Shown: positions 20,039 to 42,327 of the stretch, piece after piece
Position numbering within the stretch: the stretch's first letter is position 1
Layout: each line of letters starts with the position of its first letter
NCBI GenBank assembly: GCA_018823415.1
Contig: JAHJIN010000501.1
Coordinates: forward strand, 46,518-110,517
Direction: 5' to 3'
Origin: Chloroflexota bacterium
GTDB lineage: Bacteria; Chloroflexota; JAHJIN01
Length of the DNA: 64,000 nt
Notes under the pieces: generated by a model
Told to the model about the DNA's origin: nothing
The model's database searches: none
What the model saw: only the letters and a program-made list of their open reading frames with translations
Position numbers and translations under genes: made by a program

Positions 20039-21193
20039 ATGAAAGGATTGGTACTGGAAGCAGACTGGAACCCCAAAGCGGGCTATGCCGTGTCCGAGTG
20101 GGAAACGCGCACGCACAAGGCCATCACCGGCAACGCGGTATGGCATCGCCCCCAATTGGGCATCAAAGACGTGCCCATGCCCACGATTCAGCCCAACGAG
20201 GTCTTGATCCAGATCAAGGCCTGCGGAGTCTGCGGTTCTGACATGCACTTTTACGAGACCGACAAGGACGGCTATATCCTCTACCCGGGCCTCACCAAGT
20301 TCCCGGCCATCCTGGGCCACGAATTCTCGGGCCAGATCGTAGAGGTGGGCTGCGACGTGGACGACCTGGTAGTGGGCGACATGGTCACGGCCGAAGAGAT
20401 GATCTGGTGCGGCCACTGCCGGCCCTGCCGCGACGGGTTCCCCAACCACTGCACCAACCTGGAAGAGATCGGGTTCACCATCGACGGGGCCTTTGCCGAG
20501 TACATTGCCATTGGGGCCAAGTATTGCTGGAAGCTGAACGACATCTATGAGCGGCTGGGCGACGAAACCAAGACCTACGAGGCCGGCGCCCTGGTGGAAC
20601 CGGCCAGCGTGGCCTACAACGGCATCTTTGAGCGCGCCGGCGGGTTCCGGCCCGGCGCGGCTGTGGTGGTCTATGGCGCCGGTCCCATCGGCCTGTCCTC
20701 CATCGCCGAATGCAAAGCGGCCGGCGCCGCCCGGCTCTTTGCCTTTGAAGTGGGCGAGGCGCGCCGTGAGCTGGCAAAAATGATGGGCGCCGATTACGTG
20801 TTCGACCCCCGCGCCGTCTCGCCGCATCAGGTGGTCCTGGACCTGACGCACGGCCTGGGCGCCGACTTCCAGGTCGAGGCGGCCGGTGCGCCGGACAAGA
20901 CCATCCCCGAGATGGAACAGTGCCTGGCGATCAATGGCAAGATCGTCCAGATCGGCCGGGCTGCCACCCGCGTGCCCATGTACCTGGAGACCTTGCAGGT
21001 GCGCCGCAGCCAGGTATTCGGCGCGCAGGGCCACAGCGGTCACGGCACGTTCCCCAACGTCATCAGCCTGATGGCCGCCGGCCTCGTGGACCTGACGCCC
21101 ATCATCACCGCCCGCTATGACCTGGACCACGCCGTAGACGGCATCGCCCAATCCACCAGCCGCCAGGACGGCAAGGTGATGGTCAAAATCTAG
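20039..21193 (+). CDS. iolM: Zinc-dependent dehydrogenase, probable scyllo-inosose 3-dehydrogenase (IolM-like)
   Basis: The predicted protein has 384 aa and is a medium-chain dehydrogenase. Catalytic zinc ligands are Cys65 (KACGVCGSD), His94 and Glu95 (GHEFSG). The structural zinc lobe is C124, C127, C130 and C138. The cofactor loop is VVYGAGPIGLSSIAEC. The insert YETDKDGYILYPGL before the GHE motif matches the Thermotoga IolM-type enzymes as I remember them. In that pathway IolM oxidises 2-keto-myo-inositol (scyllo-inosose) to a 1,3-diketone. AAGGAGG precedes the ATG. It sits apart from the other iol genes, behind URO-D; sorbitol/xylitol dehydrogenase is the alternative. Confidence 0.7.
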   Translation: MKGLVLEADWNPKAGYAVSEWETRTHKAITGNAVWHRPQLGIKDVPMPTIQPNEVLIQIKACGVCGSDMHFYETDKDGYILYPGLTKFPAILGHEFSGQIVEVGCDVDDLVVGDMVTAEEMIWCGHCRPCRDGFPNHCTNLEEIGFTIDGAFAEYIAIGAKYCWKLNDIYERLGDETKTYEAGALVEPASVAYNGIFERAGGFRPGAAVVVYGAGPIGLSSIAECKAAGAARLFAFEVGEARRELAKMMGADYVFDPRAVSPHQVVLDLTHGLGADFQVEAAGAPDKTIPEMEQCLAINGKIVQIGRAATRVPMYLETLQVRRSQVFGAQGHSGHGTFPNVISLMAAGLVDLTPIITARYDLDHAVDGIAQSTSRQDGKVMVKI

Positions 21194-21267
21194 CCTGACT
21201 GGCCGCTGCCGGCCATTCGCAGCCGAATCGTGAATGAGATCTATGGCCCGATACCCGCACAGACATC

Positions 21268-21296
21268 TTGACAGGTGCCATCCAAAATGATACACT
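21268..21296 (+). promoter_or_regulatory. Promoter for the second ABC transporter
   Basis: TTGACA (21268-21273) and TACACT (21291-21296) are 17 bases apart, with TGA directly before the -10 (extended -10). The remaining 150 bases to the gene form a long leader with no evident ORF. Confidence 0.65.
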
Positions 21297-21452
21297 GGAC
21301 AGGCGACGAGTCGAGCGCGCACGCTGCGCAGACCGGCGACACTCACCCAGGAGGTGCTGGCGGCCACTCGATAGCAAGGGGATTGGCCGGTCCCCACCCA
21401 ACAAGTGATCAGAACACAGTATAGAAGCCACATTTCAAGGAGGAAAAAGGAC

Positions 21453-22505: not shown

Positions 22506-22522
22506 CGCTAACAGACCTTTAC

Positions 22523-22548
22523 GGGGCGAGGGGACAGCCCCTCGCCCC
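22523..22548 (+). promoter_or_regulatory. Hairpin between binding protein and permease genes (second ABC)
   Basis: GGGGCGAGGGG and CCCCTCGCCCC form a perfect 11-bp stem around ACAG, followed by TTTA. It sits between the binding-protein gene and the permease gene, as in the first transporter. Confidence 0.75.
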
Positions 22549-25950: not shown

Positions 25951-25985
25951 ACGTCAAGCGTCAAACGTGACGCCGGGCGTTTGAC
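25951..25985. repeat. Heptamer repeat/inverted repeat at the convergent junction
   Basis: Tandem degenerate AAACGTC units end in GTCAAACG (25960-25967), which can pair with CGTTTGAC (25978-25985). The repeat runs into the last codons of the PfkB gene on the minus strand. Confidence 0.55.
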
Positions 25986-26865
25986 CGCTTCGCATGACGC
26001 GGTACAGCGCCTCGACCTCGGTCAGCTCGCGCCGGAAGGGGCCTTCTGCTTCCAGCTTTAGACTGGTGACGGCGGCGGCCCAGGCCACGGCCTCGGCCGG
26101 GGATGCGGTCAGCCGCCGGGACAGATACGCCGCCGTGCAGGTGTCGCCGCGCCCGCTGCGGCCCCGGACCTCCCGGGGGCGCCAAGGCGCCTCATCGAAT
26201 ACTCCATCATGATACACCAACACGCCGCCGCCGTGGGTGAGCAACACCTCGCGCGGTCCCAGGGCCGCCAGTCGCCGGGCGGCCTCATGGCGATCGGCTT
26301 GGCCGGTCAGCAACTCGGCCTCCACGGCATCGGTCTTGAGCACGGTCACCAGGGGCAAGATGGCCTCCCGGCCCGGCCAATCGTCATACACCAGCGCGCC
26401 GTCCCTGATGGCACGGACAAAGCCCTGCACGTCGAGCGAGACGGCGACGCCGCTGGCGGCAAGCGCCCGAATGACCTCGGCCGGCACTTCGCCCCGCACC
26501 GACGCCCCGATGTGCCAGGTGCGCGCCGACACGGGCGCTACTTCGGCAACGGTAAACGGCCCGGCCGAGCTGGTCAACTCGATGGTGCGCTCGTCCAGGT
26601 TGGCGGTGGGGTAGGTCAGACGCAGGCACGTGGACGTCGGCGTGGCCCGGGCATAGACCGTCACCCCCAGCCGCTCCAGCTCGTCGAGCACGCGCCGATC
26701 GGCCCGGGCCAGCCGGGTCACAACGGCCACGCGCAGGCCCATCCGGGCGGCCACGCTGGCCCCATAGTAGAACGCCCCGCCGTCCACCGTGCGCGAGGAC
26801 CCGGGGTAAACGATAGTATCCTGGGTATAGTGGCCCAAAAAGGCGATGTCGAACATTTGGGACAT
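25954..26865 (-). CDS. PfkB-family carbohydrate kinase, inositol-kinase-like (copy 1)
   Basis: The predicted protein has 303 aa. AGGAGCAGCC precedes the ATG at 26865. The ribokinase-family signature RSGRGDTCTAAYL carries the catalytic Asp241. The N-terminal FDIAFLGHYTQDTIVYPGSS and VSLDVQGFVRAIRDG are shared with the second PfkB gene of this cluster (31017-31898). The closest family I know with this pattern is the myo-inositol 3-kinase/IolK group of Thermotoga and Thermococcus, but fructokinase-like functions cannot be excluded. It is divergent from iolG across a 69-base gap with its own promoter, so it may be regulated separately from the plus-strand run. Confidence 0.72.
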   Translation of the reverse strand: MSQMFDIAFLGHYTQDTIVYPGSSRTVDGGAFYYGASVAARMGLRVAVVTRLARADRRVLDELERLGVTVYARATPTSTCLRLTYPTANLDERTIELTSSAGPFTVAEVAPVSARTWHIGASVRGEVPAEVIRALAASGVAVSLDVQGFVRAIRDGALVYDDWPGREAILPLVTVLKTDAVEAELLTGQADRHEAARRLAALGPREVLLTHGGGVLVYHDGVFDEAPWRPREVRGRSGRGDTCTAAYLSRRLTASPAEAVAWAAAVTSLKLEAEGPFRRELTEVEALYRVMRSGQTPGVTFDA

Positions 26866-26934: not shown

Positions 26935-27951
26935 ATGGCATCACAACTCGGTATCGGATTGATTGGCGCGGGACGCATTGGCCGGGTCCACGCCGAAAAC
27001 CTGGCCTATCGCATCCCGCAGGCCCGGCTGCTGGCCGTGGCCGATGTGTATGCCGAGGCGGCGCACAAGCTGGCCCACGACCTGGGCATCCCGGCGGCCT
27101 ACCCGGACCACCGGCGCATCCTGGAAGACCCGGCCATTCAAGCAGTGGTCGTGTGTTCCAGCACCGACACTCACGCCCAGATGGTCGAGGAGGCAGCCCG
27201 GGCCGGCAAGCACATCTTTTGCGAAAAGCCCATAGCCCTGGACCTGGCCCGCATCGACCGGGCGTTGGCGGCGGTGGACCAGGCCGGCGTCAAGCTCCAG
27301 GTGGGCTTTCAGCGGCGCTTTGACCCCAGCTTTCAACGGGCGCACGAGGCGATCCGCGCCGGGCAGATCGGCGTGCCCCACATCCTGCGCATCACCAGCC
27401 GCGACCCGCAGCCTCCGCCCATCGAGTATGTGCGCGTGTGCGGCGGCATCTTTATGGACATGACCATCCACGATTTTGACATGGCCAGGTTCCTCATGGG
27501 CGACGAGGTGGACGAGGTATACGCCGCCTGTGGGGTGCTCATCGACCCGGCCATTGGCGAGGCCGGCGACGTGGACACGGCCGTGGTCACGCTCCAGTTT
27601 GCGAATGGCGGCCTGGGCGCCATCGACAACAGCCGCCGCGCCGCCTATGGCTATGACCAGCGGGTAGAGGTGTTTGGCTCGCAGGGCATGGTGACGGTGT
27701 CGAACAATGCGCCGAATGCGGCCGTCATCAGCGACGCCGGGGGCATTCACGCGCCACTGCCATTGCACTTTTTCATCGAACGCTACGCCGAGGCCTATGT
27801 GGCCGAGATGCGCGCGTTTGTCGAATGCGTGCTGCACGACACGCCGCCGCCGGTCACCGGCCACGACGGGCGCGTCCCGGTGGTGATGGGCTATGCGGCC
27901 AAACTGTCACTGGAAGAACACCGGCCCGTTCGCCTGAGCGAGATTGAATAA
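26935..27951 (+). CDS. iolG: Inositol 2-dehydrogenase-like Gfo/Idh/MocA enzyme (IolG, copy 1)
   Basis: The predicted protein has 338 aa. GIGLIGAGRIGRVHAENLA is the NAD-binding Rossmann start. EKPI carries Lys98, and GGIFMDMTIHDFDMARFL carries Asp175 and His179. The K, D and H spacing matches the catalytic triad of Bacillus IolG (K97/D172/H176). It should oxidise the C2 hydroxyl of myo-inositol to 2-keto-myo-inositol. GGAGGAAAT precedes the ATG. It leads the plus-strand catabolic run and is followed after 21 bases by a second copy. Confidence 0.85.
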   Translation: MASQLGIGLIGAGRIGRVHAENLAYRIPQARLLAVADVYAEAAHKLAHDLGIPAAYPDHRRILEDPAIQAVVVCSSTDTHAQMVEEAARAGKHIFCEKPIALDLARIDRALAAVDQAGVKLQVGFQRRFDPSFQRAHEAIRAGQIGVPHILRITSRDPQPPPIEYVRVCGGIFMDMTIHDFDMARFLMGDEVDEVYAACGVLIDPAIGEAGDVDTAVVTLQFANGGLGAIDNSRRAAYGYDQRVEVFGSQGMVTVSNNAPNAAVISDAGGIHAPLPLHFFIERYAEAYVAEMRAFVECVLHDTPPPVTGHDGRVPVVMGYAAKLSLEEHRPVRLSEIE

Positions 27952-27972: not shown

Positions 27973-28983
27973 ATGAGCGACATTCGCATCGCCGTCGTCG
28001 GCGCCGGCCGCATCGGGCTGGTCCACGCCGAAAACCTGGCGCACCGGGTCCGAGGCGCCCAACTGGCCGCTGTCACCACATCCAGGCCCGAACGGGCGGC
28101 GGCAGTTGGGGCCTGCTGCGGCGACGTGCCGGCCTACCCGGACCTGGACGCGCTGCTGGCCGCCGAGCGCGACAACCTGGACGCCGTGGTCATTGCCTCC
28201 AGCACGTCGGCCCACGCCGACAACGTGGAACAGTGCGCCGCGATCGGGCTGCACATCTTTTGTGAAAAGCCCCTGGCCCTGTCGCTGGCCGACTGCGACC
28301 GGGCCATCGCCGCCGCCGACCGGGCCGGCGCCAAGCTGATGCTGGGCCACGTGCGCCGGTTCGACGCCGGGCACGTGGAGGCCCGGCGCCTCATCGCGGC
28401 CGGGGCCATCGGCCAGGTCATCGCCTTCCGGGCCATCAGCGGCGATACCGACCCGCCGCCGGCCAGCTTTGCCGACCCGGCCGTGAGCGGCGGCCTCATT
28501 CTGGACGCCATGTACCACGACCTGTACCTGGCCCGCTGGCTCGTGGCCGACGAGGTGGTACGCGCCTATGCCGAGGGCGGCGCGCTGGTAGACGCCGGCG
28601 TGCGCTCGGTGGGCGACGTGGACAATGCCATCGTGAGCCTGCGCTTTGCCGGGGGCGCCATGGGCTCGCTGTTTGTCAGCCGCACCACGCGCTACGCCCA
28701 CGACCTGCGGGTAGAGGTCATCGGCGACGAGGGCGCGGTCCACATCGGCCGGCTGGCCCAGACGCCGGTGGTCCTGCTGGACCGCCAGGGCCTGCACCGC
28801 GACACGGTCCGCACGGCCACTCAGCGCTTTGGCGATGCCTTTGCCGCCGAGTTGCAGGCATTCGTAGATTGCGTGCGCCAGGATACCGCGCCGCCGGTCA
28901 CCGGCCTCGACGGCCGGGCCGTTACTGCCATCGGCCTGGCCGCGACGAGGTCTCTACACGAAAAATCACCTGTGCAAGTCTAG
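27973..28983 (+). CDS. Gfo/Idh/MocA dehydrogenase, IolG paralogue (copy 2)
   Basis: The predicted protein has 336 aa with the same fold and length as copy 1: NAD loop IAVVGAGRIGLVHAENLAH, EKPL Lys99, and GGLILDAMYHDLYLARWL with Asp178 and His182. It differs around the substrate pocket (TDPPPASFADPAVSGG against DPQPPPIEYVRVCGG), which suggests another isomer (scyllo- or D-chiro-inositol) or the phosphate of the same ring. It has its own AACGAGGAG site and a heptamer-repeat hairpin behind it. The GC-rich codon use is like the neighbours, so it looks like an old duplicate. Confidence 0.82.
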   Translation: MSDIRIAVVGAGRIGLVHAENLAHRVRGAQLAAVTTSRPERAAAVGACCGDVPAYPDLDALLAAERDNLDAVVIASSTSAHADNVEQCAAIGLHIFCEKPLALSLADCDRAIAAADRAGAKLMLGHVRRFDAGHVEARRLIAAGAIGQVIAFRAISGDTDPPPASFADPAVSGGLILDAMYHDLYLARWLVADEVVRAYAEGGALVDAGVRSVGDVDNAIVSLRFAGGAMGSLFVSRTTRYAHDLRVEVIGDEGAVHIGRLAQTPVVLLDRQGLHRDTVRTATQRFGDAFAAELQAFVDCVRQDTAPPVTGLDGRAVTAIGLAATRSLHEKSPVQV

Positions 28984-29087: not shown

Positions 29088-30206
29088 ATGACCGAACAAC
29101 CAATTCCCCCCGGACTATTACCCACCAACCAGCCGGACCTGTTCTTTGAGGACAATACCGTGGGCCGGCTCAAAAAAGAGATCTGGGACGCCACCGACGC
29201 CCAGATCGACGCCGTTCTCGCCGAATATGGCGTGCCCTCGCCGGTGGAATGGGGCAAGCCCAACTCTTATATCCAGACCACCGTGCGCTGGCAGGTAGAG
29301 GAGAACCGCAAAAAGAACGACATCGTGTTCATCCCCGTAGGATGCACCGAGCTGCACGGGGCGCACCTGCCCAGCGCCGCCGACACGCTATACGTCAGCC
29401 AGATCGTGGAAGGCGTGCGGCGCTATACCGCCCGGCGCGGCGCGCCGGTGAACCTGGCCCTGCCGCCGATCATGTACGGCGCGCACCCCTATCACCACCT
29501 GGGCATGCCCGGCACCGTCATCGTGCGCGAAGATGTGGTGCGCGAGTTGCTGATCGACGTGATGCTGGGCCTGTGGAACGACGGCTTTCGCAAGCAGGTC
29601 ATCGTCAACAACCACGGCCACCTGTGGGTGCTGGAAGCAGCCCTCCAACAGTTCCAGAAACGCTACCAGCTCCCCGGCATCTTTCGCGTCATCGACTGGC
29701 ACCGGGCCGTGCGCGAGTTTTTCCGCACCTGCGAGCGCGGCGGCTGCTGGGCCACCAACTTTGTCCACGCCGACGAGTCCGAAACGTCCCTGAGCCTGCT
29801 GTTCCATCCCGAGATGGTAGACATGACCCGGGCCGTAGATACCGAGGGCGAAAGCTATCTGCCAGAAGGCCATTTTGACAAGTCGGTGGACCCCTTTGGT
29901 CGGCCCAGTCGGTGGTCCGAGGGCGAGGGCCATTTCGCCATCGAGATCGCGGCCACCCCCGAGGGCGTGGTGGGCCAATCTACCCAGGGCGCGGCCCACA
30001 AGGCCAAGCGGCCCGTGGCGGCCATCCTCCGCTACCTGACCCTGCTCAACGACCAGATGTTGGAGGCATTCCCGGCCGGCACCGTGCCGCCGGTGGAAAA
30101 AGTCACCCTGCGCTCCGCCGCCGAGATGGAACCCTACCTGCGCGAGCCGCTGAGCGAAGGCTGGAAGCCGGTGTACGCACTGCCGCGCATCGGGCAAGAG
30201 GCATGA
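29088..30206 (+). CDS. iolN: Creatininase-family hydrolase, probable 3-dehydro-scyllo-inosose hydrolase (IolN-like)
   Basis: The predicted protein has 372 aa. The metal-binding pattern of the creatininase family is visible: PVGCTELHGAHLPSAADTL (E88, H90, H93, D99), NNHGH (H176, H178) and HADESETS (H227, E232). Creatininases hydrolyse cyclic amides, but in the Thermotoga inositol pathway the IolN enzyme, which I recall as a member of this family, opens the 1,3-diketone ring to 5-keto-L-gluconate. Position directly after two iolG copies and overlapping iolO supports that role. AAAGGAGG precedes the ATG. Creatininase or mycofactocin-type functions are less likely here. Confidence 0.75.
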   Translation: MTEQPIPPGLLPTNQPDLFFEDNTVGRLKKEIWDATDAQIDAVLAEYGVPSPVEWGKPNSYIQTTVRWQVEENRKKNDIVFIPVGCTELHGAHLPSAADTLYVSQIVEGVRRYTARRGAPVNLALPPIMYGAHPYHHLGMPGTVIVREDVVRELLIDVMLGLWNDGFRKQVIVNNHGHLWVLEAALQQFQKRYQLPGIFRVIDWHRAVREFFRTCERGGCWATNFVHADESETSLSLLFHPEMVDMTRAVDTEGESYLPEGHFDKSVDPFGRPSRWSEGEGHFAIEIAATPEGVVGQSTQGAAHKAKRPVAAILRYLTLLNDQMLEAFPAGTVPPVEKVTLRSAAEMEPYLREPLSEGWKPVYALPRIGQEA

Positions 30207-31012
30207 AGCTCAGCATCGTCCTTTCCACCCAACCCGCCCAGTTCAACGCCGTGGCCTTCAAGGGCGACCTGGAGGCCAACGCGCGCAAGATCGCCGGCTG
30301 GGGCTATGACGGCGTAGAGTTGGCTATCCGCGACCCCCGGCTCGTGGACGGCCCGGCGCTGCTGGACCTGCTCGCCCGGCACGGTCTGGCGGCGCCGGCC
30401 ATCGGCACCGGCCAGGCCTGGGGCGAGGAAGGGCTGTCATACACCGACCCGGACCCGGCCGTGCGCCAGGCCGCCATCCAGCGCACCATCGACCACGTGC
30501 CTCTGGCGGCCCAGGCCCACGCGCTTATCATCATCGGCCTGCTGCGCGGCATCGTCAAGCCTGGCGTGTCGCACCAGCAGGCCATGACCTGGCTGGTGGA
30601 CGCCCTGCAGCGGGCGTGCGCGGCCGCGCATGCAGGCGGCGTGCGCATCTGCCTGGAACCCATCAACCGCTACGAAACCACGCTCATCAACACCGTCAGC
30701 GAAGGGCTCGACCTGATCGAGCGGGTGGGCGCGGCCAACCTGGGCCTGCTGGTGGACACATTCCACATGAACATCGAGGAGCCGGTCATCGCCGACAGCA
30801 TCCGGGCCGCCGGCGACCAGGTCCACCACGTCCACGTGGCCGACTCGAACCGCTGGTACCCCGGGGCCGGGCACGTGGATTTCGCCGGCGTGCTTGGCGC
30901 CCTCGCGGTCATCGGCTATGATGGCTGGGTTTCGGGCGAGTTTATGCCCCGGCCCGACCCGGACACAGCGGCCCGGCGCGCCATCAAATACCTGAGACGA
31001 ATCGAGAAGTGA
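30203..31012 (+). CDS. iolO: TIM-barrel epimerase, probable 5-keto-L-gluconate epimerase (IolO-like)
   Basis: The predicted protein has 269 aa in the xylose isomerase-like barrel. The metal ligands Glu152 (CLEPINRYE), Asp185 (GLLVDTFHMN), His211 (HVHVADSNRW) and Glu246 (GWVSGEFMP) have the same numbering as in D-tagatose 3-epimerase. The length matches Thermotoga IolO (TM0416, about 270 aa), as does the stretch DTFHMNIEEP. IolO turns 5-keto-L-gluconate into D-tagaturonate. The ATG overlaps the iolN stop (ATGA), the tightest coupling in the cluster. Hydroxypyruvate isomerase or another sugar epimerase is the alternative reading. Confidence 0.8.
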   Translation: MKLSIVLSTQPAQFNAVAFKGDLEANARKIAGWGYDGVELAIRDPRLVDGPALLDLLARHGLAAPAIGTGQAWGEEGLSYTDPDPAVRQAAIQRTIDHVPLAAQAHALIIIGLLRGIVKPGVSHQQAMTWLVDALQRACAAAHAGGVRICLEPINRYETTLINTVSEGLDLIERVGAANLGLLVDTFHMNIEEPVIADSIRAAGDQVHHVHVADSNRWYPGAGHVDFAGVLGALAVIGYDGWVSGEFMPRPDPDTAARRAIKYLRRIEK

Positions 31013-31898: not shown

Positions 31899-32913
31899 CG
31901 TGCCTGCTGACCGCGTGATCGAGTGCTCGGCGCCGGGCCGGGCCGGCATCATTGGCAATCCCACCGATATGTACGGTGGCGCCGTGCTCTCGTGTTCGGT
32001 GAACATGCGAGCGCGCGTGCACGTCACCGTCTCCGCTGCCCCTCACGTCACCCTCGAAACCCTGGAGGGGACGTGCGTGATCGCCGGCCGGGACGGCCTG
32101 CGGCTCCAGGGCGACTGCTTTGACGTGGCCCGGGCCGTGCTGGACTATATGCAATTGCCGCCGCTGGCCTGTCGCGTGCGCTACGACAGCGACATCCCCG
32201 TGCGCAGCGGATTGGCCGGGTCCACGGCGCTGCTCGTCGCCCTGACGCAGGCATTGCTGGCCTGGCAAGGACGGCTTCTGCCCTCCTATCACCTGGCTGA
32301 AACAGCTCGCGCTATCGAGTTGAATCACCTGCAAGTGGCGTGCGGTTATCAAGACGCTTATATGTGCGCCTTTGGCGGCCTGAATTACATGGACTTTCGG
32401 GACAAGCAGTTCTATCGCGAGGCCGAGGCCGAGCTATTTGCCACCGTCGAGCCGCTGGCGGCCCACGTGTCGCAATTGCCATTCATCCTGGCAGTGACCG
32501 GCCTGCCGCACGAGTCCGACACCGTCCACCGGCCCATCCGGGACCGATGGCTGGCCGGCGAGCCTCGGGTGATCCAGGGCTATCAACGCATCACCGAGTT
32601 GGCCCAACTGGGCAAAAAGGCCCTGCTGGAGCGCGACTGGCCCACCCTGGGCCGCTTGATGAACGAGAATCATGCCATCCAGCGCGGTTTGGGCGGTTCG
32701 GGCGAGTCCAACGAGCGGCTCATCGCGGCAGCGCTGAAGGCTGGCGCGCTGGGGGCCAAGCTGGCCGGGGCCGGCGACGGCGGCACCATCATCGCCCTGT
32801 GGCCCGGGCCAGACCCGGCCCCGCTGGAAGGCGCCCTGCGCCAGGCCGGCGCGGCCGCTGTCTATCGCCCGGCTATCGTGCCCGGTGCCACTATCGAAAG
32901 GAACACACCATGA
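31888..32913 (+). CDS. GHMP-family kinase resembling plant glucuronokinase
   Basis: The predicted protein has 341 aa from GTG 31888, overlapping the upstream gene by 11 bases; GTG 31900 is also possible. GHMP motif 1 is APGRAGIIGNPTDMYGG, motif 2 SDIPVRSGLAGSTALLVAL and motif 3 KLAGAGDGGTII. The order and spacing, including CGYQDAYMCAFGGLNYMDF and RDRWLAGEP, follow the plant glucuronokinase subfamily, which makes glucuronate 1-phosphate in the inositol oxygenation pathway. A uronate or hexonate 1-kinase in this cluster is plausible. Heptose kinases of the same superfamily are an alternative. The stop overlaps the UxaE start. Confidence 0.68.
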   Translation: MTDSVPADRVIECSAPGRAGIIGNPTDMYGGAVLSCSVNMRARVHVTVSAAPHVTLETLEGTCVIAGRDGLRLQGDCFDVARAVLDYMQLPPLACRVRYDSDIPVRSGLAGSTALLVALTQALLAWQGRLLPSYHLAETARAIELNHLQVACGYQDAYMCAFGGLNYMDFRDKQFYREAEAELFATVEPLAAHVSQLPFILAVTGLPHESDTVHRPIRDRWLAGEPRVIQGYQRITELAQLGKKALLERDWPTLGRLMNENHAIQRGLGGSGESNERLIAAALKAGALGAKLAGAGDGGTIIALWPGPDPAPLEGALRQAGAAAVYRPAIVPGATIERNTP

Positions 32914-34445
32914 CCCACTCGCACCTATCCCCGGCCGAATGCGCCGCGCTCTCGGGCCTGACGGTCTATCCCCGCTCGGTGTCCGTCGCTGCCGCCGGCG
33001 CGGTCTATTTCCTGGGGCGCGATGCTGGCGGCTTGCGGCAACTGGGCATCGTCCAGCCGGGCAGCGCGCCACTGGACCCAGCTACCTGCGGTCTGGACCG
33101 CACCGTCTCGTTCGACGGGCAGGTGTGGGCCGTGCGCCTGTGCCCCGCTGACGCACGCCACGCCGCCGTCTTGCGCGCGGCCTTGCCGCACCTGCGCCCG
33201 CAACCCCTGGGCCTGTCCACATCGGTGGGGTTGGGGGACCGGCTGGGCCGGGCCACGCCGGGCCACGTGCGGGCCGTGCAGGGCACCGCGCCGGGCGCCA
33301 GCGTCACGCCGGTATTCGCCCAACAGAGCATCCGCGAAAACGCTCGCACCGGCCGCACGCCTCAACAGGTCATCGACGACGCCACCTGGGGCCTGTTCCA
33401 GGAAGGCTGGCGCGCGCCCTGGGGTGCCGACGCCGACCACCTCAAGACCCCCGCTGATATTGACGTCTGCGCCGCCGCTGGGTTTACCATGTACACCATC
33501 GACCCCGGCGATCACGTAGACAACACGGTACAATCCGCGTCGCCATCCGACCTGCGCGACCGGTTCCACGCCCTGCCGTGGAACACGCTGGAAGACAGCC
33601 CCTCGGCCCTGGACGCGCGCTACCAGGACCGGGTGTTCGAGTTTGGCGACCTGGTCTTCAAGCTTGACGTGTTGACGCTGGTGCGCGCCGCCGCCAAATA
33701 TGGCCGGGCCATCGCCCACGTGACGGTCATGGCCCGACATCTGGCCCAGGTCATGGGCGACCACCCCTACGAGGTCGAGGTGTCTGTGGACGAGACCGAA
33801 ACGCCCACGTCGCCGGCCGAGCACGTCTATATCGCCACCGAGTTGCGCCGGCTGGGCGTCCAGTGGGCGAGCCTGGCCCCGCGCTTTGTGGGGCGCTTTG
33901 AAAAGGGCGTCGACTATATCGGCGACCCTTCGATGGACTCGGGGCAAGCCCTGGCCGAGTTCGAGGCCGAGTTCGCCCAGCACGCCGCCATCGCCTGGCA
34001 TCTGGGACCATACAAGCTCAGCCTGCACTCGGGGTCAGACAAGTTTAGCATCTATCCCATCGCTGCCCGGCATACCGAGGGGCTGATCCACGTCAAAACG
34101 GCCGGTACCAGCTACCTGGAGGCCCTGCGCACCATCGCCCGGGTGGACCCGGCTCTCTTTCGCGACATCCTGGCCCTGGCCCGGGCGCACTACGAGGCGG
34201 ATCGGGCCTCCTACCACGTCTCGGCCGACGTGGGCCGGGTGCCGCCGCCAGAGGTGCTGCGCGACGACGAACTACCGGCCCTGCTGGACGATTTCCACGC
34301 CCGCGAGGTGCTGCACGTCACCTTTGGCTCGGCGCTGGACGTCTATGGCGACCGCCTGCGTGCCGTGCTGGACGCCCACGAGGAGACGTATTACGCGGCG
34401 TTGGAGGCGCACCTGGGCCGGCACCTGGCCCCGTTCGCTGCCTGA
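32910..34445 (+). CDS. uxaE: Tagaturonate epimerase (UxaE family)
   Basis: The predicted protein has 511 aa. The landmarks of the UxaE family (Thermotoga TM0440 type) are present: ADHLKTPADIDVCAAAGFT followed by YTIDPGDH, PYEVEVSVDETETPTSP and YKLSLHSGSDKFSIYPI. UxaE interconverts D-tagaturonate and D-fructuronate. Tagaturonate is the product of the preceding IolO step, so its place here is informative. Its start overlaps the GHMP stop (ATGA). A 10-bp hairpin follows the stop. Aldose/ketose epimerases of related barrels would be the alternative, but the signature stretches are specific. Confidence 0.88.
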   Translation: MTHSHLSPAECAALSGLTVYPRSVSVAAAGAVYFLGRDAGGLRQLGIVQPGSAPLDPATCGLDRTVSFDGQVWAVRLCPADARHAAVLRAALPHLRPQPLGLSTSVGLGDRLGRATPGHVRAVQGTAPGASVTPVFAQQSIRENARTGRTPQQVIDDATWGLFQEGWRAPWGADADHLKTPADIDVCAAAGFTMYTIDPGDHVDNTVQSASPSDLRDRFHALPWNTLEDSPSALDARYQDRVFEFGDLVFKLDVLTLVRAAAKYGRAIAHVTVMARHLAQVMGDHPYEVEVSVDETETPTSPAEHVYIATELRRLGVQWASLAPRFVGRFEKGVDYIGDPSMDSGQALAEFEAEFAQHAAIAWHLGPYKLSLHSGSDKFSIYPIAARHTEGLIHVKTAGTSYLEALRTIARVDPALFRDILALARAHYEADRASYHVSADVGRVPPPEVLRDDELPALLDDFHAREVLHVTFGSALDVYGDRLRAVLDAHEETYYAALEAHLGRHLAPFAA

Positions 34446-34521: not shown

Positions 34522-35349
34522 ATGGACTATATCGATCAGTTATTCGGATTGACCGGCCAGGTGACCGTGATCACCGGCGGCGGCGGCGTGCTCTGCGGGG
34601 CCATTAGCCGGGCCTTGGCGCGCGCTGGCGCCCGGGTGGCCGTGCTGGACCTGTTCCCGGCGGCGGCTCAGGCTGTAGCCGACGACATCGTGGCGGCCGG
34701 CGGGACGGCCATCGCCCTCCCGGCCGACGTGCTCTCGCGCGAGAGCCTGGAAACGGCCCGCGATGCGGTGCTGGCCCGCTTTGGCCGCGTGGACGTGCTC
34801 ATCAATGGGGCCGGCGGCAACAAAAAGCAGGCCACCACCTCGGCCGACCTGTCGTTCTTTGACCTGCCGCCCGACGCGGTCCAGTGGGTGTTCAACCTCA
34901 ACCTGCTGGGCACACTCTTGCCCAGCCAGGTGTTCGGCCAGCACATGGCCGAGCAAGGGACCGGCGTCATCCTGAACATCTCGTCCATGAACGCCTTTCG
35001 GCCCCTCACGCGCATCCCGGCCTACTCGGCGGCCAAGGCCGCCGTGAGCAACTTTACCCAGTGGCTCGCCGTTCACCTGGCGCAGGAATACTCGCCGCGC
35101 ATCAGGGTCAACGCATTGGCGCCCGGCTTTTTCCTCACCGAGCAAAACCGCTTTCTGCTCACCGACGAGGCCACCGGCGCGCTGACCCCGCGCGGCCAGA
35201 CAATCATCGACCACACGCCCCTGGGGCGCTTTGGCGAGCCGGCTGACCTCATCGGCGCGACCTTGTGGCTGCTATCGCCGGCAGCCGGCTTTGTCACCGG
35301 CATCGTGGTGCCGGTCGATGGGGGCTTTTCGGCGTACAGCGGCGTATGA
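34522..35349 (+). CDS. uxuB: SDR-type D-mannonate oxidoreductase (fructuronate reductase, UxuB)
   Basis: The predicted protein has 275 aa and is a short-chain dehydrogenase. The cofactor loop is TGGGGVLCGA, the catalytic residues Ser154/155 (LNISSMNAF), Tyr168 and Lys172 (YSAAK). INGAGGNKKQATTS and NAFRPLTRIPAYSAAKAA are characteristic of the SDR-type UxuB (YjmF-like) that reduces D-fructuronate to D-mannonate. AAGGAGAC lies 9 bases before the ATG. It follows UxaE, which supplies its substrate, so the annotation is supported twice. Confidence 0.88.
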   Translation: MDYIDQLFGLTGQVTVITGGGGVLCGAISRALARAGARVAVLDLFPAAAQAVADDIVAAGGTAIALPADVLSRESLETARDAVLARFGRVDVLINGAGGNKKQATTSADLSFFDLPPDAVQWVFNLNLLGTLLPSQVFGQHMAEQGTGVILNISSMNAFRPLTRIPAYSAAKAAVSNFTQWLAVHLAQEYSPRIRVNALAPGFFLTEQNRFLLTDEATGALTPRGQTIIDHTPLGRFGEPADLIGATLWLLSPAAGFVTGIVVPVDGGFSAYSGV

Positions 35350-35370
35350 CGTCTGACGCTTGACGTTTTC
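35345..35370. repeat. Heptamer-unit tandem repeat
   Basis: The units ATGACGT, CTGACGC and TTGACGT follow each other in 7-base steps just before the CAGGAGAC site of the next gene. They match the family at 25.95 and 29.0 kb. Confidence 0.6.
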
Positions 35371-35383
35371 CAGGAGACGAACA

Positions 35384-36283
35384 ATGCCTACCAACGACCC
35401 TGCCCACTCATTGCGCGACCTGACGGCCCAACACGATTTCCTCATCGGCATCGACTCAGACGGCTGCGCCTTTGACACGATGGAGATCAAGCACAAAGAG
35501 TGCTTTTGCCCCAACACCGTCAAACACTGGGGCCTCCAGCCGGTGTCCCGGTTCGCCCGCGAGGCCGCCGAGTTTGTGAACCTGTATTCCCAGTGGCGCG
35601 GCATCAACCGATGGCCGGCCCTGGTGATGGTCCTGGACCTGCTGCGCGAGCGGCCGGCAGTGCAGGCCCGGCACGCCGCCATCCCTCCGGTCCCGCGTAT
35701 CCGCGCGTTCATCGCCGACGAGGCGTATCCCAAGAGCAACGATGGCCTGCGCGCTTACATGGCCGACCACCCGGACCCCGAACTGGACCGGGCGATGGCC
35801 TGGAGCCTGGCCGTCAACGCCGCCATCACCGACATGGTATACGGCATCCCGCCATTCCCCTACGTCCGCGAGAGCCTGGAATACCTCCATGACCGGGCCG
35901 ATATGCTCGTGGTGTCGCAGACGCCCACCGAGGCCCTGGAGCGCGAGTGGAGCGAACACGGCATCGACCGCCATGTGCGCGTCATCGCCGGGCAAGAGAT
36001 GGGCAAAAAGAGCGAGCATCTGGCCCTGGCGGCCAAAGGGCAGTATCCACCAGACCGCATCCTCATGATCGGTGACGCGCCCGGCGATCTGAAAGCCGCG
36101 CGGGCCAATCACGCCCGGTTCTATCCCATCAATCCCGGCCGCGAGGCCGAGAGCTGGCAGCGCTTTCGAGAAGAGGCCGTGGACCGGTTCCTGGCCGGCG
36201 ACTATGCCGGGGACTATGAGGCTACTCTCATCGCCGAGTTCGAAAAGCTGCTGCCGGGAGTGCCCCCCTGGAAAGGGTCATAG
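35384..36283 (+). CDS. HAD-superfamily hydrolase
   Basis: The predicted protein has 299 aa. HAD motif I is LIGIDSDGCAFDT (D-x-D), with a Ser/Thr motif II in VVSQTPTE, Lys in EMGKKSEH and motif IV ILMIGDAPGDLKAA. The large cap domain (about residues 55-165) includes YSQWRGINRWPALVMVLDLL. Phosphatase activity on a sugar or polyol phosphate is likely. In this cluster it could dephosphorylate an imported inositol phosphate or remove dead-end phosphates. AGGAGACGAAC precedes the ATG at 35384. Confidence 0.82.
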   Translation: MPTNDPAHSLRDLTAQHDFLIGIDSDGCAFDTMEIKHKECFCPNTVKHWGLQPVSRFAREAAEFVNLYSQWRGINRWPALVMVLDLLRERPAVQARHAAIPPVPRIRAFIADEAYPKSNDGLRAYMADHPDPELDRAMAWSLAVNAAITDMVYGIPPFPYVRESLEYLHDRADMLVVSQTPTEALEREWSEHGIDRHVRVIAGQEMGKKSEHLALAAKGQYPPDRILMIGDAPGDLKAARANHARFYPINPGREAESWQRFREEAVDRFLAGDYAGDYEATLIAEFEKLLPGVPPWKGS

Positions 36284-36285
36284 AC

Positions 36286-37545
36286 ATGGTCATCGGCCAA
36301 GGTAGTACCACTGACATGTTGATGGAAGAGCAGGTCCGCGAGTTGATGGCGGCCGCGCTGGCCCGGCGCGACTGGCGCGGCGCGCGCGTGCTGGTCATCA
36401 TTCCCGATAGCACCCGCACCGCGCCCATACCACTCTTTTACCGGCTGTTCAATGAACTGCTGCGCCCCCAGGTCACGGCGCTGGATTATTTGGTGGCCCT
36501 GGGCACGCACCAGCCCATGAGCGACGAGGCGTTGTGCCGGCTGGTGGGCGTATCGTCGCTGCCGGCGGACCCGCACATCTATAACCACCACTGGGAGCGG
36601 CCCGGCACGTTCGCCACGCTGGGCGTCATCCCGGCCGCCGCCATCAGCGCCCTCAGCGAGGGCCGGCTGACCGTGGACGTGCCGGTGGCCGTCAACCGGC
36701 TGGCCCTGGACCATGACCAGCTTATCATCTGCGGCCCCACCTTTCCCCACGAGGTGGTGGGCTTTTCGGGCGGCAACAAGTACCTGGTTCCCGGCATCGC
36801 CGGGCCAGACATCATCAACCTGACCCACTGGCTGGGCGCGCTCATCACCAGCATGGCCGTCATCGGCACCCGGCACACCCCGGTGCGCGCCGTCATCGAC
36901 CGGGCCGCCGCCCTCGTCGACCGGCCCAAGCTCTGCTTCAGCCTGGTCATCGCGCCGCCCGGCTCGGCGCACGCCGGCGAACTGGCCGGGCTGTACATCG
37001 GCTCGCCGGAAGAGGCCTACGAGGCCGCCGCCGACCTGTCATCACAGCTTCACATCGTCTGGCTGGACCAGCCGGTGCGGCGCGTCCTGTCCATCATCCC
37101 GCCCATGTACGACGACCTGTGGACCGCCGCCAAGGGCATGTACAAGCTGGAGCCGGCCATTGCCGACGGCGGCGAGGTGATCATCTATGCCCCGCACATC
37201 ACCGAGGTGTCATACACCCACGGCGCCGTCATCGACCAGGTGGGCTATCATTGCTGCGACTATTTCCAGAGCCAGTGGGACGAGTTCCAGGACCGGCCCT
37301 GGGGCGTGTTGGCCCACAGCACCCACCTGCACGGCCTGGGGACCTATGACCCGGCCACCGGCGTCGAGCAGGGCCGCATCAGGGTCACACTGGCGACCGG
37401 TATCCCTGAAGAACGCTGCCGGCGCATCAACGTGGGCTATATGGACCCGGCCACCATCGACGTGAATGAATGGGCCGGTCGGGGGGATGAGGGAATCCTG
37501 GTGGTGCCCAAGGCCGGCGAGATGTTGTACAAGATACGCAAATAG
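36286..37545 (+). CDS. LarA-family nickel-pincer racemase/epimerase
   Basis: The predicted protein has 419 aa. Residues that bind the nickel-pincer nucleotide in lactate racemase are kept: the PDSTRTAP loop (D41, R44, matching D72/R75), LGTHQPMS (H75, matching H108), H155, Lys165 in GFSGGNKYLVPG and H181 (matching H174, K184 and H200 with identical spacing). LarA homologues are known that racemise lactate or malate and that epimerise D-gluconate at C2. After UxuB makes mannonate, a mannonate/gluconate epimerase is the natural reading. LarB, LarC and LarE, which build the cofactor, are not in the window. Confidence 0.82.
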   Translation: MVIGQGSTTDMLMEEQVRELMAAALARRDWRGARVLVIIPDSTRTAPIPLFYRLFNELLRPQVTALDYLVALGTHQPMSDEALCRLVGVSSLPADPHIYNHHWERPGTFATLGVIPAAAISALSEGRLTVDVPVAVNRLALDHDQLIICGPTFPHEVVGFSGGNKYLVPGIAGPDIINLTHWLGALITSMAVIGTRHTPVRAVIDRAAALVDRPKLCFSLVIAPPGSAHAGELAGLYIGSPEEAYEAAADLSSQLHIVWLDQPVRRVLSIIPPMYDDLWTAAKGMYKLEPAIADGGEVIIYAPHITEVSYTHGAVIDQVGYHCCDYFQSQWDEFQDRPWGVLAHSTHLHGLGTYDPATGVEQGRIRVTLATGIPEERCRRINVGYMDPATIDVNEWAGRGDEGILVVPKAGEMLYKIRK

Positions 37546-37606: not shown

Positions 37607-39009
<1,403 letters not shown>

Positions 39010-39013
<4 letters not shown>

Positions 39014-40317
39014 GCCGATCCAAGAACGTCATCGTCGCCCAGAGCGGTGGGCCAACGCCGGTGATCAACGCCTCGCTGCGCGGGGTCGTGGAGGCGTGCC
39101 GCGCGCACCCCAACACGTTTGGCACGGTCTATGCCGGCTATCACGGCATCGAGGGCGTGCTGCGCGAAGAACTGCTGGACCTGTCGGCCCAGCCGGCCGA
39201 CGAGATTGCCCTGTTGAGCGTCACGCCGGCCGCCGGCGCCATCGGCACCTGCCGCTACAAGCTGCGGGGCGGCCAGCAGGAGGATTTCGAGCGCATCATC
39301 CGGGTGTTTCAGGCGCACAACGTCGGCTATTTCTTTTACAACGGCGGCAACGACAGCATGGACACCACCCACAAGGTGGCCCAACTGGCCCACGAGCGGG
39401 GCCTGGACCTGGTGGCTGTGGGCGTGCCCAAAACCATCGACAACGATGTGGGTGGCGGCCTGGGGGGCGCGGGCGAGTTCCAGCTCATCGACCACACGCC
39501 CGGCTATGGGTCAGTGGCCCGGTACTGGGCGCTGACGGTGCAGGGCGCCAATGAAGAGAACGCCGGCTCGTGCCCGTCGGACCCGGTGCTGGTGATGCAG
39601 GCGATGGGCCGCCAGATCGGCTTTATCCCGGCCGCCGCGCGCCTGGCCGACCCGGCCCGCCAGATGCCGCTCCTCATCGCCATGCGCGAGTCGGGCCTGA
39701 CGCTGCCAGACCTGGCCGACGCCGTGAACGATACACTGCACCGTCACGGCCGCTGTTTGGTGGTGGTCAGCGAGGGGTTCCCGGTGGGCGAGCTGGGCGA
39801 GCTAAAGGACAGCTTTGGGCACGTGGAATATGGGTCCAGCGAGATGACCGTGGAGCGGGCCGTGGTCAATTATCTCAACCGGGCCGGGCTAGCGGCGCGC
39901 GGCGCGGCCCGGGGCAACGTGCCCGGCAGTGACCAGCGCCACAACATGGTCTATGCCTCCACCGTGGACCTGGAAGAGGCATACCGCGTGGGCCAGCAGG
40001 CCGTCCGCATCGCCGTGGAGGACGGGTCCGGCTACATGGCGACCATCCTGCGCACCGGCGACGCGCCCTATGCCGTCCGCTACGACAAGGTGCCGCTGGA
40101 ACTGGTCGCCAACTCGGAGCGCCGCTTTCCGGCAGCCTGGATCGGCCCCTCGCGGCTGGACGTGACCGACGAGTTCCTGCACTATGCCCGGCCCCTCATC
40201 GGCGACAGTTGGCCCAGCATTCCGCTGGTGGATGGTCGCCAGCGATTTGCCCGGCTCCAACCCATCTGGGCCGACCGGCTGCTGCCAGCCTATGTGCCCC
40301 AGGCCCATCGAGGCTGA
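39010..40317 (+). CDS. 6-phosphofructokinase, probably pyrophosphate-dependent type
   Basis: The predicted protein has 435 aa; the ATG overlaps the gnd stop (ATGA). The start VIVAQSGGPTPVINASLRG, the GGNDSMD loop (G113, N114, D115) and PKTIDND (P140 to D146) place it in the PFK superfamily. ATP-PFKs have GGDGS and often G in place of K before TIDND. An Asp at the fourth loop position and the PKTIDND Lys are seen in PPi-dependent members, so PPi use is predicted. Asn in place of the usual first Asp (N114) is worth checking. It links pentose phosphate products back to glycolysis. Confidence 0.85.
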
Positions 40318-40335
40318 CACATATCAGGAGACACC

Positions 40336-42327
40336 ATGACCAATAGCCAAGACCTGATCACCCGCTGCATTCACACCATCCAGATGTTGGCCGTCGACAC
40401 GGTGGAGCAGGCACGCTCGGGCCACCCGGGACTGCCCCTGGAGGCTGCCGCCATCGCCTATGTACTGTGGACCCGCTACTTGCAGTACAACCCGGCCGAT
40501 CCGGCGTGGCCGGACCGGGACCGCCTGGTGCTCTCGGCCGGGCACGGCAGCGCCCTGCTCTATACCATGCTGCACCTCACCGGCTATGACCTGTCCCTGG
40601 ACGAACTGCGCCGGTTCCGCCAGTGGGACAGCCGCACCCCCGGCCACCCGGAGCACGGCCTCACCCCCGGCGTCGAGACCACCACCGGTCCCCTGGGGCA
40701 AGGGTTGGGCAACGCCGTGGGACTGGCCCTGGCCCGGGCGCACCTGACCGCCTGCTACCCCCACTGCCCCCTCGACCATCACACCGTGGTCATTGTCAGC
40801 GACGGCGACATGATGGAGGGCGTGGGCTATGAAGCGGCGTCCCTGGCCGGACACCTGCGCCTGCCCCGACTCATCGCCATCTATCTGGACAACCACATCA
40901 CCATCGACGGCGGCACTGACCTGAGTTTTTCCGACGACGTGGCGGCGCGCTATGCCAGTTTTGGCTGGCGCGTGCTGCGCATGGATGGCACCGACGTGGC
41001 CGACATCGACCGCGCGCTAGGCGACGCGTGGAGCCAGCCCAACCGGCCCATACTGGTCATCGCGCGCACGCACCTGGGCTGGGGCAGCCCCAAGCAAGAC
41101 ACTTCGGCCGCCCACGGCGAGCCCCTGGGGGCAGAGGCCCTGCGCGCCACCAAGGAGCACCTGGGTTGGCCCCTGGAACCATCGTTCCTGGTGCCAGACG
41201 ACGTGCGGACGCATTTTCGCTGGGCCGGGGACCGGGGCCAACAGGCGCAGGCCGCCTGGCAATCCCGGTGGAACGCCTATGCCGCCGCGTATCCCCAGGA
41301 GGCCGCCCGGTTCCAGGCCGAGTGGGCCGGCGATCTGCCGCCCGGCTGGGACGCCGACCTGCCCAGTTTTGCGCCGGACAAACCGATAGCGACCCGGGTG
41401 GCCGGCGGCCAGATCATGAACGCCATCGCGCCCCGGCTCCCGGCCCTCATCGGCGGGTCGGCGGACCTGGCAGCGTCGAACCGGACCGCGCTCAAAGACC
41501 TGGGCAACATCCGGCCCGGCGACTATGCCGGGCGCAACATCCACTTTGGCATCCGCGAGCACGCCATGGGTGCCATCCTCAACGGGCTGGCCCTCCACGG
41601 CGGGCTCATCCCCTTTGGTGCCACGTTCCTGGTCTTTAGCGACTACATGCGGCCCAGCATCCGCCTGGCGGCTATGATGGGCCTGCGCGTGATCTATGTG
41701 TTCACCCACGACAGCATTGGCCTGGGCGAGGATGGCCCCACGCACCAGCCTGTGGAGCAATTGGCCACGCTCCGGGCTATCCCCAACCTGACAGTCATCC
41801 GGCCGGCCGACGCCAACGAGACCGTCGTCGCCTGGCGCATGGCGTTGGAGCGGCGCGCCGGCCCCACGGCCCTGGCCCTCACCCGGCAGGGCGTGCCAGT
41901 GTTCGACCGAAGCCGGCTCGCGCCGGCCGCCGGACTGGCCCGGGGCGCATACATCCTGGCCGACGCCGCCGGGACGCCTGACGTGATCCTCATCGCCACC
42001 GGGTCCGAGGTGTCGGTGGCCCTCGGCGCGCGAGAGTTACTGGCGGCCGAGGGCATTCAGGCCCGGGTGGTGTCCATGCCGTCCTGGGGGTTGTTCGACG
42101 CGCAACCCCCCGCGTACCGGGACGGCGTGCTGCCGCCCGGCGTGCTGGCTCGCGTGGCTGTGGAGGCCGGCGTATCCCAGGGCTGGCATCGCTACGTGGG
42201 CCTGGCCGGCGACGTGGTGGGCCTGGACCGGTTCGGGGCCTCGGCGCCCTACCAGACGCTCATGCGCGAGTTCGGGTTCACGCCCGAGCACGTGGCGGCG
42301 CGCGCCCGGACCGTGCTGGGCCGATAG
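40336..42327 (+). CDS. tkt: Transketolase
   Basis: The predicted protein has 663 aa, the full length for the family. The thiamine diphosphate site is SDGDMMEGVGYEAASL with LDNHITIDG. The central pyrimidine domain has GIREHAMGAILNGLALHGG and the His-rich start ARSGHPGLPLEAAAI is typical. It exchanges two-carbon units between pentose and hexose phosphates and completes the path from ribulose 5-phosphate. AGGAGACACC precedes the ATG, 18 bases after PFK. It is the last gene of the long plus-strand run. Confidence 0.95.
   Translation: MTNSQDLITRCIHTIQMLAVDTVEQARSGHPGLPLEAAAIAYVLWTRYLQYNPADPAWPDRDRLVLSAGHGSALLYTMLHLTGYDLSLDELRRFRQWDSRTPGHPEHGLTPGVETTTGPLGQGLGNAVGLALARAHLTACYPHCPLDHHTVVIVSDGDMMEGVGYEAASLAGHLRLPRLIAIYLDNHITIDGGTDLSFSDDVAARYASFGWRVLRMDGTDVADIDRALGDAWSQPNRPILVIARTHLGWGSPKQDTSAAHGEPLGAEALRATKEHLGWPLEPSFLVPDDVRTHFRWAGDRGQQAQAAWQSRWNAYAAAYPQEAARFQAEWAGDLPPGWDADLPSFAPDKPIATRVAGGQIMNAIAPRLPALIGGSADLAASNRTALKDLGNIRPGDYAGRNIHFGIREHAMGAILNGLALHGGLIPFGATFLVFSDYMRPSIRLAAMMGLRVIYVFTHDSIGLGEDGPTHQPVEQLATLRAIPNLTVIRPADANETVVAWRMALERRAGPTALALTRQGVPVFDRSRLAPAAGLARGAYILADAAGTPDVILIATGSEVSVALGARELLAAEGIQARVVSMPSWGLFDAQPPAYRDGVLPPGVLARVAVEAGVSQGWHRYVGLAGDVVGLDRFGASAPYQTLMREFGFTPEHVAARARTVLGR

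Follow-up and report, generated by a model that had tools for sequence, protein, structure and literature searches.

In our study, a window of 64,000 nucleotides (the whole stretch of DNA that was analysed; contig JAHJIN010000501.1 of a Chloroflexota bacterium) was found to contain a cluster of genes predicted to carry inositol through D-mannonate and D-gluconate into the pentose phosphate pathway (Table 1). Genomes are denoted here by codes beginning with G and loci by codes beginning with L, and G000 is the genome from which the window was taken. The central part of the cluster, from the inositol dehydrogenase IolG1 to transketolase (26935-42327), consisted of 13 genes in the same orientation, separated by -13 to +104 bp, and inspection of the open reading frames (ORFs) showed that those of the cluster were open. 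The run also included a PfkB-type kinase (PfkB2), a GHMP kinase and a HAD phosphatase-like protein. The cluster was found to start further upstream, with a LacI-family regulator (13587) followed by an ABC transporter of the rhizopine/inositol type (14809-17766). Between IolM and IolG stood an AfuABC-type transporter (21405-25949) and, divergently on the minus strand, a PfkB kinase (PfkB1r). The 13 genes are probably co-transcribed, and an inverted repeat of 13 pairs behind transketolase resembles a terminator stem and probably marks where the transcription unit stops. The region contained six terminator-like sites, which is not above the mean of 6.9 in shuffled sequences.

The IolG, IolM, IolN, IolO, UxaE and UxuB families convert myo-inositol to D-mannonate in Thermotoga, and all six were present in the cluster. 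IolG1, IolM, IolN and IolO scored over their NCBIfam cut-offs and were found in one cluster, as in the Thermotoga type. UxaE matched PF16257, and the SDR-type UxuB was over the cut-off of PRK08277, which together make up the uronate route. An earlier note on this DNA, made from its letters alone, had named these genes and the glutamate, aspartate and histidine residues of IolO; every ORF that it named was present at its position, the family assignments held against NCBIfam and Pfam, with IolG2 below its cut-off, and IolO carried E152, D185, H211 and E246 as claimed. The reaction of IolO is restated in the available part of a later study (PMC12632266).

The gene that would join the two halves of the cluster encodes a homologue of the nickel-dependent epimerase LarA. 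Its closest solved relative was 4NAR (252 bits, spanning residues 10-418 of its 419), which is GntE2 of Thermotoga maritima, an enzyme with measured D-mannonate epimerase activity (PMC7583248). The homologue kept the residues D41, R44, H75, H155, E156, V157, K165, H181 and K283, which correspond to the residues of GntE for catalysis and for the nickel-pincer (NPN) cofactor together with the loop; in the alignment it was identical at the GntE2 positions 38, 41, 73, 154, 155, 164 and 180 (D, R, H, H, E, K and H, respectively). R41, K164, H180 and E155 of GntE2 are named in the available part of PMC7583248, and the other positions were mapped through its Lactobacillus plantarum LarA numbering. 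The HE[V/S] loop was conserved, and its second loop residue is V, matching the EV/S of groups 18-20 of the LarA superfamily; the nearest solved relative belongs to group 20. W279 of the W-T-A-A-K motif was present in 61 of 61 LarA rows, and by our reading it is the helix-11 tryptophan of the GntE signature, which is unnumbered in the paper. The stretch 335-342 varied among the loci, where the equivalent of N348 of GntE2 (the small A/V residue in the helix 14 region) was placed without certainty. From its kinship to GntE2 the LarA homologue is predicted to be a D-mannonate/D-gluconate 2-epimerase, as the earlier note had suggested.

The LarA homologue was followed by the genes of the pentose phosphate pathway: Gnd (6-phosphogluconate dehydrogenase), a pyrophosphate (PPi)-type phosphofructokinase and transketolase. 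UxuA (PF03786), the mannonate dehydratase that would lead into the 2-keto-3-deoxygluconate (KDG) branch, had no match in the whole G000 genome, and 5 of 14 control genomes matched; of the LarA genomes, this search covered G000. The 2-keto-3-deoxy-6-phosphogluconate (KDPG) aldolase (PF01081) likewise had no match in G000, against 8 of 14 control genomes with one; among 14 LarA genomes it was matched in eight and without a match in six. The absence of the KDG branch, which had been read earlier from the window, was thus found for these two enzymes across the genome; the searches did not extend to enolase-superfamily mannonate dehydratases, IlvD/EDD dehydratases, KDG kinase or zwf.

To compare the neighbourhoods of LarA, 400 genomes of the phylum were searched, and 87 contained a match at E ≤ 1e-20. 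Besides G000, 61 genomes matched substantially at no less than 49% identity, and neighbourhoods were fetched from 56 of them and from four distant genomes (34-36%), 60 in all; short LarA fragments in G223 and G375 were left uncounted. With the window this gave 61 loci, and since several contigs end nearby the neighbour counts are lower bounds. UxuB (at least 48% identity, gene centres within 2.5 kb) was present in 29 of the 61 loci, and UxaE in eight, seven of these within 6 kb. Gnd was found near LarA in 11 of 61 loci spanning eight family codes, which agrees with its proposed place as the exit of the route. Glucuronate isomerase (UxaC), UxuB, LarA and Gnd occurred together in four loci (L032, L076, L078 and L082). 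Inositol genes were present within the LarA-Gnd locus of two other genomes, in the order IolG-IolM-IolN-UxuB-HAD-LarA-Gnd-PFK-UxaE-like-PfkB2-IolO in G191, with a divergent UxaE-like protein that reached 50 bits with PF16257, and UxuB-LarA-FGGY-Gnd-IolO-UxaE in G183.

In three of the 15 genomes tested for gluconokinases, the LarA locus included a gluconokinase-like gene. In G183 an FGGY kinase lies between LarA and Gnd, with 217 bits to gluconokinase (cut-off 649) versus 192 to xylulokinase, both under the cut-off. A SKI-type gluconokinase over its cut-off adjoined Gnd in G071 and LarA in G331; in G231 one was found on a contig other than that of LarA. The presence of two unrelated gluconokinase families in LarA loci is the strongest sign that the product of the LarA homologue is gluconate.

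Based on the order and the families of these genes, we propose the following route. IolG and IolM would oxidise inositol to the diketone, IolN would open the ring to give 5-keto-L-gluconate, IolO would convert this to D-tagaturonate and UxaE would form D-fructuronate, which SDR-type UxuB would reduce to D-mannonate. The GntE-like LarA homologue would invert C2 to give D-gluconate, and a kinase, for which one of the two TM0415-type PfkB proteins is the candidate, would form 6-phosphogluconate. Gnd would then produce ribulose 5-phosphate, with transketolase and the PPi-type phosphofructokinase carrying the carbon onward. We give a probability of about 0.6 to this reading, that the operon-like run encodes conversion of inositol through gluconate and 6-phosphogluconate to the pentose phosphate pathway. 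If it is true, several Chloroflexota lineages can burn inositol and hexuronates through the oxidative pentose phosphate branch without passing through 2-keto-3-deoxygluconate.

Table 1. Features of the inositol/hexonate cluster and its surroundings in the window, with the family or structure matched.
Feature	Position	Strand	Match
LacI-family regulator, possible cluster regulator	13587..14645	+	PF00356/PF13377
Inositol/rhizopine-type ABC transporter, binding protein	14809-15828	+	NF052284
Inositol/rhizopine-type ABC transporter, permease	15850-16986	+	PF02653
Inositol/rhizopine-type ABC transporter, ATPase	16990-17766	+	PF00005
URO-D/MtaA-like protein	18844..19992	+	PF01208 89 bits
IolM, scyllo-inosose 3-dehydrogenase	20039..21193	+	NF041097 553 bits (cut-off 450)
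AfuABC-type transporter, binding protein	21405-22505	+	
AfuABC-type transporter, fused permease	22573-24870	+	
AfuABC-type transporter, ATPase ORF	24693-25949	+	
PfkB1r, TM0415-type PfkB kinase, probably PPi-using	25954..26865	-	7E4L 168 bits; TM0415 1VK4 163 bits
IolG1, inositol 2-dehydrogenase	26935..27951	+	TIGR04380 479 bits (cut-off 355)
IolG2-like inositol dehydrogenase	27973..28983	+	TIGR04380 319 bits (under cut-off 355)
IolN, 3-dehydro-scyllo-inosose hydrolase	29088..30206	+	NF041098 310 bits (cut-off 245)
IolO, 5-keto-L-gluconate epimerase	30203..31012	+	NF041099 332 bits (cut-off 300)
PfkB2, TM0415-type PfkB kinase, candidate gluconokinase or inositol kinase	31017..31898	+	1VK4 155 bits
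GHMP kinase	31888..32913	+	PF00288/PF08544
UxaE, tagaturonate/fructuronate epimerase	32910..34445	+	PF16257 477 bits
SDR-type UxuB, D-mannonate oxidoreductase	34522..35349	+	PRK08277 382 bits (cut-off 281)
HAD phosphatase-like protein, beta-phosphoglucomutase/AlnB fold	35360..36283	+	
GntE-like LarA homologue, predicted D-mannonate/D-gluconate 2-epimerase	36286..37545	+	4NAR 252 bits
Gnd, 6-phosphogluconate dehydrogenase	37607..39013	+	PRK09287 715 bits (cut-off 413)
PPi-type phosphofructokinase	39001..40317	+	PRK14072 369 bits (cut-off 273); 3K2Q PPi-phosphofructokinase 250 bits
Transketolase	40336..42327	+	TIGR00232 838 bits (cut-off 682)
Inverted repeat, 13 pairs, terminator-like stem, probable transcription-unit end	42338..42371	.	

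Several findings weigh against the proposed route. Two substrate-side residues of GntE2 differ in the LarA homologue, S156 being replaced by V157 and G286 by A282, which precedes the catalytic lysine. The best NCBIfam match of the homologue, NF052594 (putative hexonate epimerase, group 18), reached 186 bits, under the cut-off of 500, and the protein is therefore not filed in group 18. No gluconokinase was recognised in G000, where the matches to TIGR01314 (FGGY type) and TIGR01313 (SKI type) stayed under their cut-offs. PfkB2 keeps the inositol contacts of TM0415, which points to an inositol-like acceptor rather than gluconate; T. maritima holds TM0415 in addition to GntK, and TM0415-type kinases were found in only 2 of the 10 other LarA-Gnd loci, namely L033 and L035 (in the latter where the contig stops, some 8.5 kb away from LarA). 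LarB, LarC and LarE, which are required for the NPN cofactor, had no match over the cut-off in G000. The assembly of G000 (6.94 Mb) is fragmented into 641 contigs, with a completeness of 92.9% and a contamination of 7.6%. Inositol does not support growth of T. maritima itself (PMC3750489).

Some of these findings would also fit an arrangement of separate modules that merely adjoin, in which the inositol and hexuronate genes stop at mannonate or exit through a dehydratase that was not recognised, a different hexonate is the substrate of the LarA homologue, and Gnd, phosphofructokinase and transketolase serve only the ordinary pentose phosphate pathway. The missing gluconokinase, the LarA score under the cut-off of NF052594, the dehydratase families left outside the searches and the small share of LarA loci with Gnd nearby all speak for such an arrangement. 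We nevertheless consider it unlikely, as the close spacing of the genes runs across the modules, LarA and Gnd are found together across eight family codes, gluconokinase-like genes occur in LarA loci and the closest solved structure is that of a measured mannonate/gluconate epimerase.

The kinase for gluconate is one of two gaps to which the cluster points. G000 contained four FGGY matches, and three of these were classified as XylB (584 bits), GlpK (800 bits) and a XylB-like protein (245 bits, under the cut-off of 380); the fourth (C144) had 98 bits to gntK_FGGY, and the best SKI-type score in the genome was 25 bits. The FGGY gluconokinase cut-off is strict, being passed by none of the 15 genomes and by 2 of 14 controls. 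The best FGGY match (C410) was rejected as a gluconokinase because it is XylB, and the XylB-like protein (C121) is a weak candidate. The best solved relatives of both PfkB kinases of the cluster were TM0415 and the near-identical chain 7E4L. TM0415 is an inositol kinase that depends on PPi, and the authors of PMC5931981 leave its true acceptor open. PfkB1r kept three of the five PPi residues of TM0415 (K171, R229 and R232, with F221 replaced by W and M266 by L) and PfkB2 kept four (K171, F221, R229 and R232, with M266 replaced by Q), together with all four inositol contacts (D11, N78, Q141 and R145). LguH, a PPi-preferring sugar-acid kinase (PMC12632266), provides a precedent by which a PPi-using gluconokinase is possible. 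We tentatively suggest, with more doubt than confidence, that one of the two TM0415-type kinases may phosphorylate gluconate, likely with pyrophosphate.

The GHMP kinase is unlikely to be the gluconokinase. Its homologues (at least 54% identity) were found in 22 other genomes of the 400, mostly without LarA: three of the 22 (G183, G381 and G135) have a LarA homologue, on other contigs, and the remaining 19 had no LarA match. Some of the homologues lie beside a nucleotidyl transferase (two of these were checked with Pfam), as observed in L119, L120 and L121, and L119 and L121 also contained an AP_endonuc_2 TIM barrel. Such loci are possibly a module for sugar-1-phosphate activation.

Two transporters were present in the cluster. 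The binding protein of the inositol/rhizopine-type transporter scored 213 bits with NF052284, under the cut-off of 420. For the binding protein of the second transporter the best PDB match was AfuA (4R72, 212 bits), and five ligand residues of AfuA were conserved as S86, T197, H252, D253 and E277. They correspond to S37, T150, H205, D206 and E229 as named in PMC4546632, the chain numbering being two above that of the paper. This transporter is predicted from its residues to import a phosphorylated sugar or cyclitol. The HAD phosphatase-like protein, which adjoins LarA in the window, kept D24/D26 in 32 of 32 aligned relatives; it occurred in 6 of the 400 genomes, all six with a LarA homologue, adjoining LarA in five and lying elsewhere in G175. 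There the relative (50% identity) stood beside AfuB-like (25%) and AfuC-like (49%) genes. A sequence search returned only general HAD names among the 120 matches listed of at least 8000. That the HAD protein might be a kinase or some specialised enzyme was rejected, since the fold is that of a beta-phosphoglucomutase/AlnB-type phosphatase.

These genes raise the question of whether the main substrates are imported phosphorylated inositol or hexuronates, with free inositol minor, which would be taken up by the AfuABC-type transporter, dephosphorylated by the HAD protein and then passed along the same route. The conserved sugar-phosphate residues, the phosphatase fold with its invariant aspartates, the HAD relative beside Afu-like genes in G175 and the presence of UxaC within the UxuB-LarA-Gnd locus of four relatives are in favour. 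However, a separate inositol/rhizopine-type transporter is present too, L072 contained the HAD gene with no Afu match in 20 kb, and the identity of the phosphorylated ligand does not follow from the AfuA residues, so that we regard this version as quite improbable.

The second gap, and the most surprising part of the cluster, concerns the NPN cofactor on which the LarA homologue would depend. LarB, LarC and LarE were all present in 8 of 14 LarA genomes and all undetected in the other six; the genomes without the three, G000 included, are G000, G191, G183, G071, G396 and G331 (completeness 93-100%, with G191 at 100% and G183 at 96%). Over 62 LarA genomes, LarC was present in 52 and undetected in 10; one of the 52, G285, contained only a 39-bit fragment, and among the ten without LarC, G306 is 79% and G219 90% complete. 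In each of the three genomes whose LarA locus includes IolO, LarC was undetected, as were LarB and LarE; among genomes without LarA, 5 of 10 had LarC. On a LarA tree of 59 rows, made by a quick method, the absence of LarC required at least four changes, so it is not confined to one lineage. The NPN and catalytic residues were intact in the eight LarC-lacking loci that were read (the window and seven others). The sole deviating full-length row was L074 of G088 (LarA 54% identity), in which the NPN lysine, the histidine and the catalytic lysine were substituted by E, N and R, respectively; this genome has LarC.

The LarC-lacking genomes may thus obtain NPN from outside or make it otherwise, or else their enzymes are idle. 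The AfuABC-type transporter was considered as an NPN importer because the NPN genes are missing, and its family includes a binder of pyridoxal phosphate (6WCE); this was not supported, as no AfuA match was present in the 60 fetched LarA loci and AfuB-like and AfuC-like genes occur in G175, which has LarC. In a literature search on NPN salvage no title concerned NPN uptake. A far-reaching version, which we think would probably not hold in full, is that a nickel-pincer epimerase works in organisms unable to make NPN, which they would acquire from neighbouring microbes, much as a vitamin, or form by a route yet to be discovered. The epimerase would serve an inositol or inositol phosphate pathway without the KDG branch, in which the sugar-acid kinase is a TM0415-type PfkB spending PPi, and two PPi-driven kinases of one operon would feed the pentose phosphate pathway. 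The source of NPN for LarA-family enzymes in genomes without LarB, LarC and LarE bears on whether microbes share this cofactor. That the route is non-functional, with the LarA homologue in its apo form or otherwise employed within a decaying or partial cluster, would agree with the undetected LarB, LarC, LarE and gluconokinase but is very improbable, as NPN-binding and catalytic residues remain unaltered in the window and in the seven other LarC-lacking loci that were read, the reading frames are open, and the same NPN genes are absent from G191 and G183 with similar clusters, which argues against recent decay.

Each step of the proposed route has a published counterpart in T. maritima, so the chemistry is not new as the earlier note had implied, whereas its placing of the LarA homologue and of Gnd, and its reading that UxuA and the KDG branch are missing, stood with the KDPG aldolase search. 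The new features are that these steps are joined within a single cluster and that the KDG branch is missing. No printed description of a combined single cluster without the KDG branch was found in searches of the open-licence literature, which did not include the two founding Thermotoga papers (2012 and 2013) and one of which missed the mention of IolO in PMC12632266. The lack of a recognised gluconokinase and of NPN genes, the AfuABC-type transporter, the HAD protein, the two PfkB kinases and the GHMP kinase are additions to that note. The TM0411-TM0416 operon of T. maritima, in the available part of PMC5931981, contains the same IolG-IolM-IolN-IolO families and a TM0415-type PfkB kinase; unlike that operon, the present cluster is fused with the uxa/gnt half and contains other transporters, with HAD, GHMP kinase, Gnd, PPi-type phosphofructokinase and transketolase in the run. 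The UxaR regulon of T. maritima, as given in the available part of PMC3750489, comprises gnd, uxaE, uxaD, gntE and gntK. GntK, LarC and a kdgA-kdgK-uxuB-uxuA operon that UxaR also controls are present in T. maritima, whereas in G000 GntK, UxuA, KDPG aldolase and LarC had no match over the cut-off. According to PMC7583248, which cites Rodionova 2012, mannonate probably gains entry to the pentose phosphate pathway through GntE2.

Two other systems are partly alike. The L-glucose pathway of Luteolibacter LG18 (PMC12632266, available part) also contains a 5-keto-L-gluconate 4-epimerase, 35% identical to IolO, with tagaturonate and a PPi-preferring sugar-acid kinase, but it runs via altronate and KDG and not via mannonate and gluconate. 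AfuABC as described in PMC4546632 shares the binding-protein family and the five ligand residues, and differs in that the transporter here is placed in an inositol/uronate cluster. In the available part of a survey (PMC9430895), Chloroflexi are mentioned only with the classical iolBCDE order.

Other layouts were observed around LarA. A contig scan with LarA alone gave only five loci, one of them in Ktedonobacteria bacterium brp13. The Desulfobacterales locus L131 showed the order UxaE-LarA-UxaC-FGGY-UxuB, and L132, which includes a 471-aa ORF and a 93% identical FGGY protein, appears to have the same layout. IolB-family proteins adjoin UxaE-UxuB-LarA in L035 (532-1359) and L063 (397-2112). In L072 a glycyl-radical enzyme and its activase (12210-15291, minus strand) lie directly beside UxuB-HAD-LarA-Gnd-PFK.

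In the window itself, the URO-D/MtaA-like protein, which has a universal-stress protein and IolM as its neighbours, could relate to methylated inositols, but no corrinoid partner was found among the annotated genes. A 200-aa ORF (17763-18365) without a Pfam or NCBIfam match overlaps the end of the ATPase of the inositol-type transporter. A regulator of 1162 aa with guanylate/adenylate cyclase, AAA and TPR domains (42390-45878, minus strand) faces the end of the cluster. At 10583-13471 on the minus strand, a DUF6937/DUF6938 protein adjoins a glycosyltransferase similar to alpha-monoglucosyldiacylglycerol synthase. Four paralogues of 467-476 aa, with no Pfam match and a mutual identity of 28-52%, were present at 52190-59335 on the minus strand.

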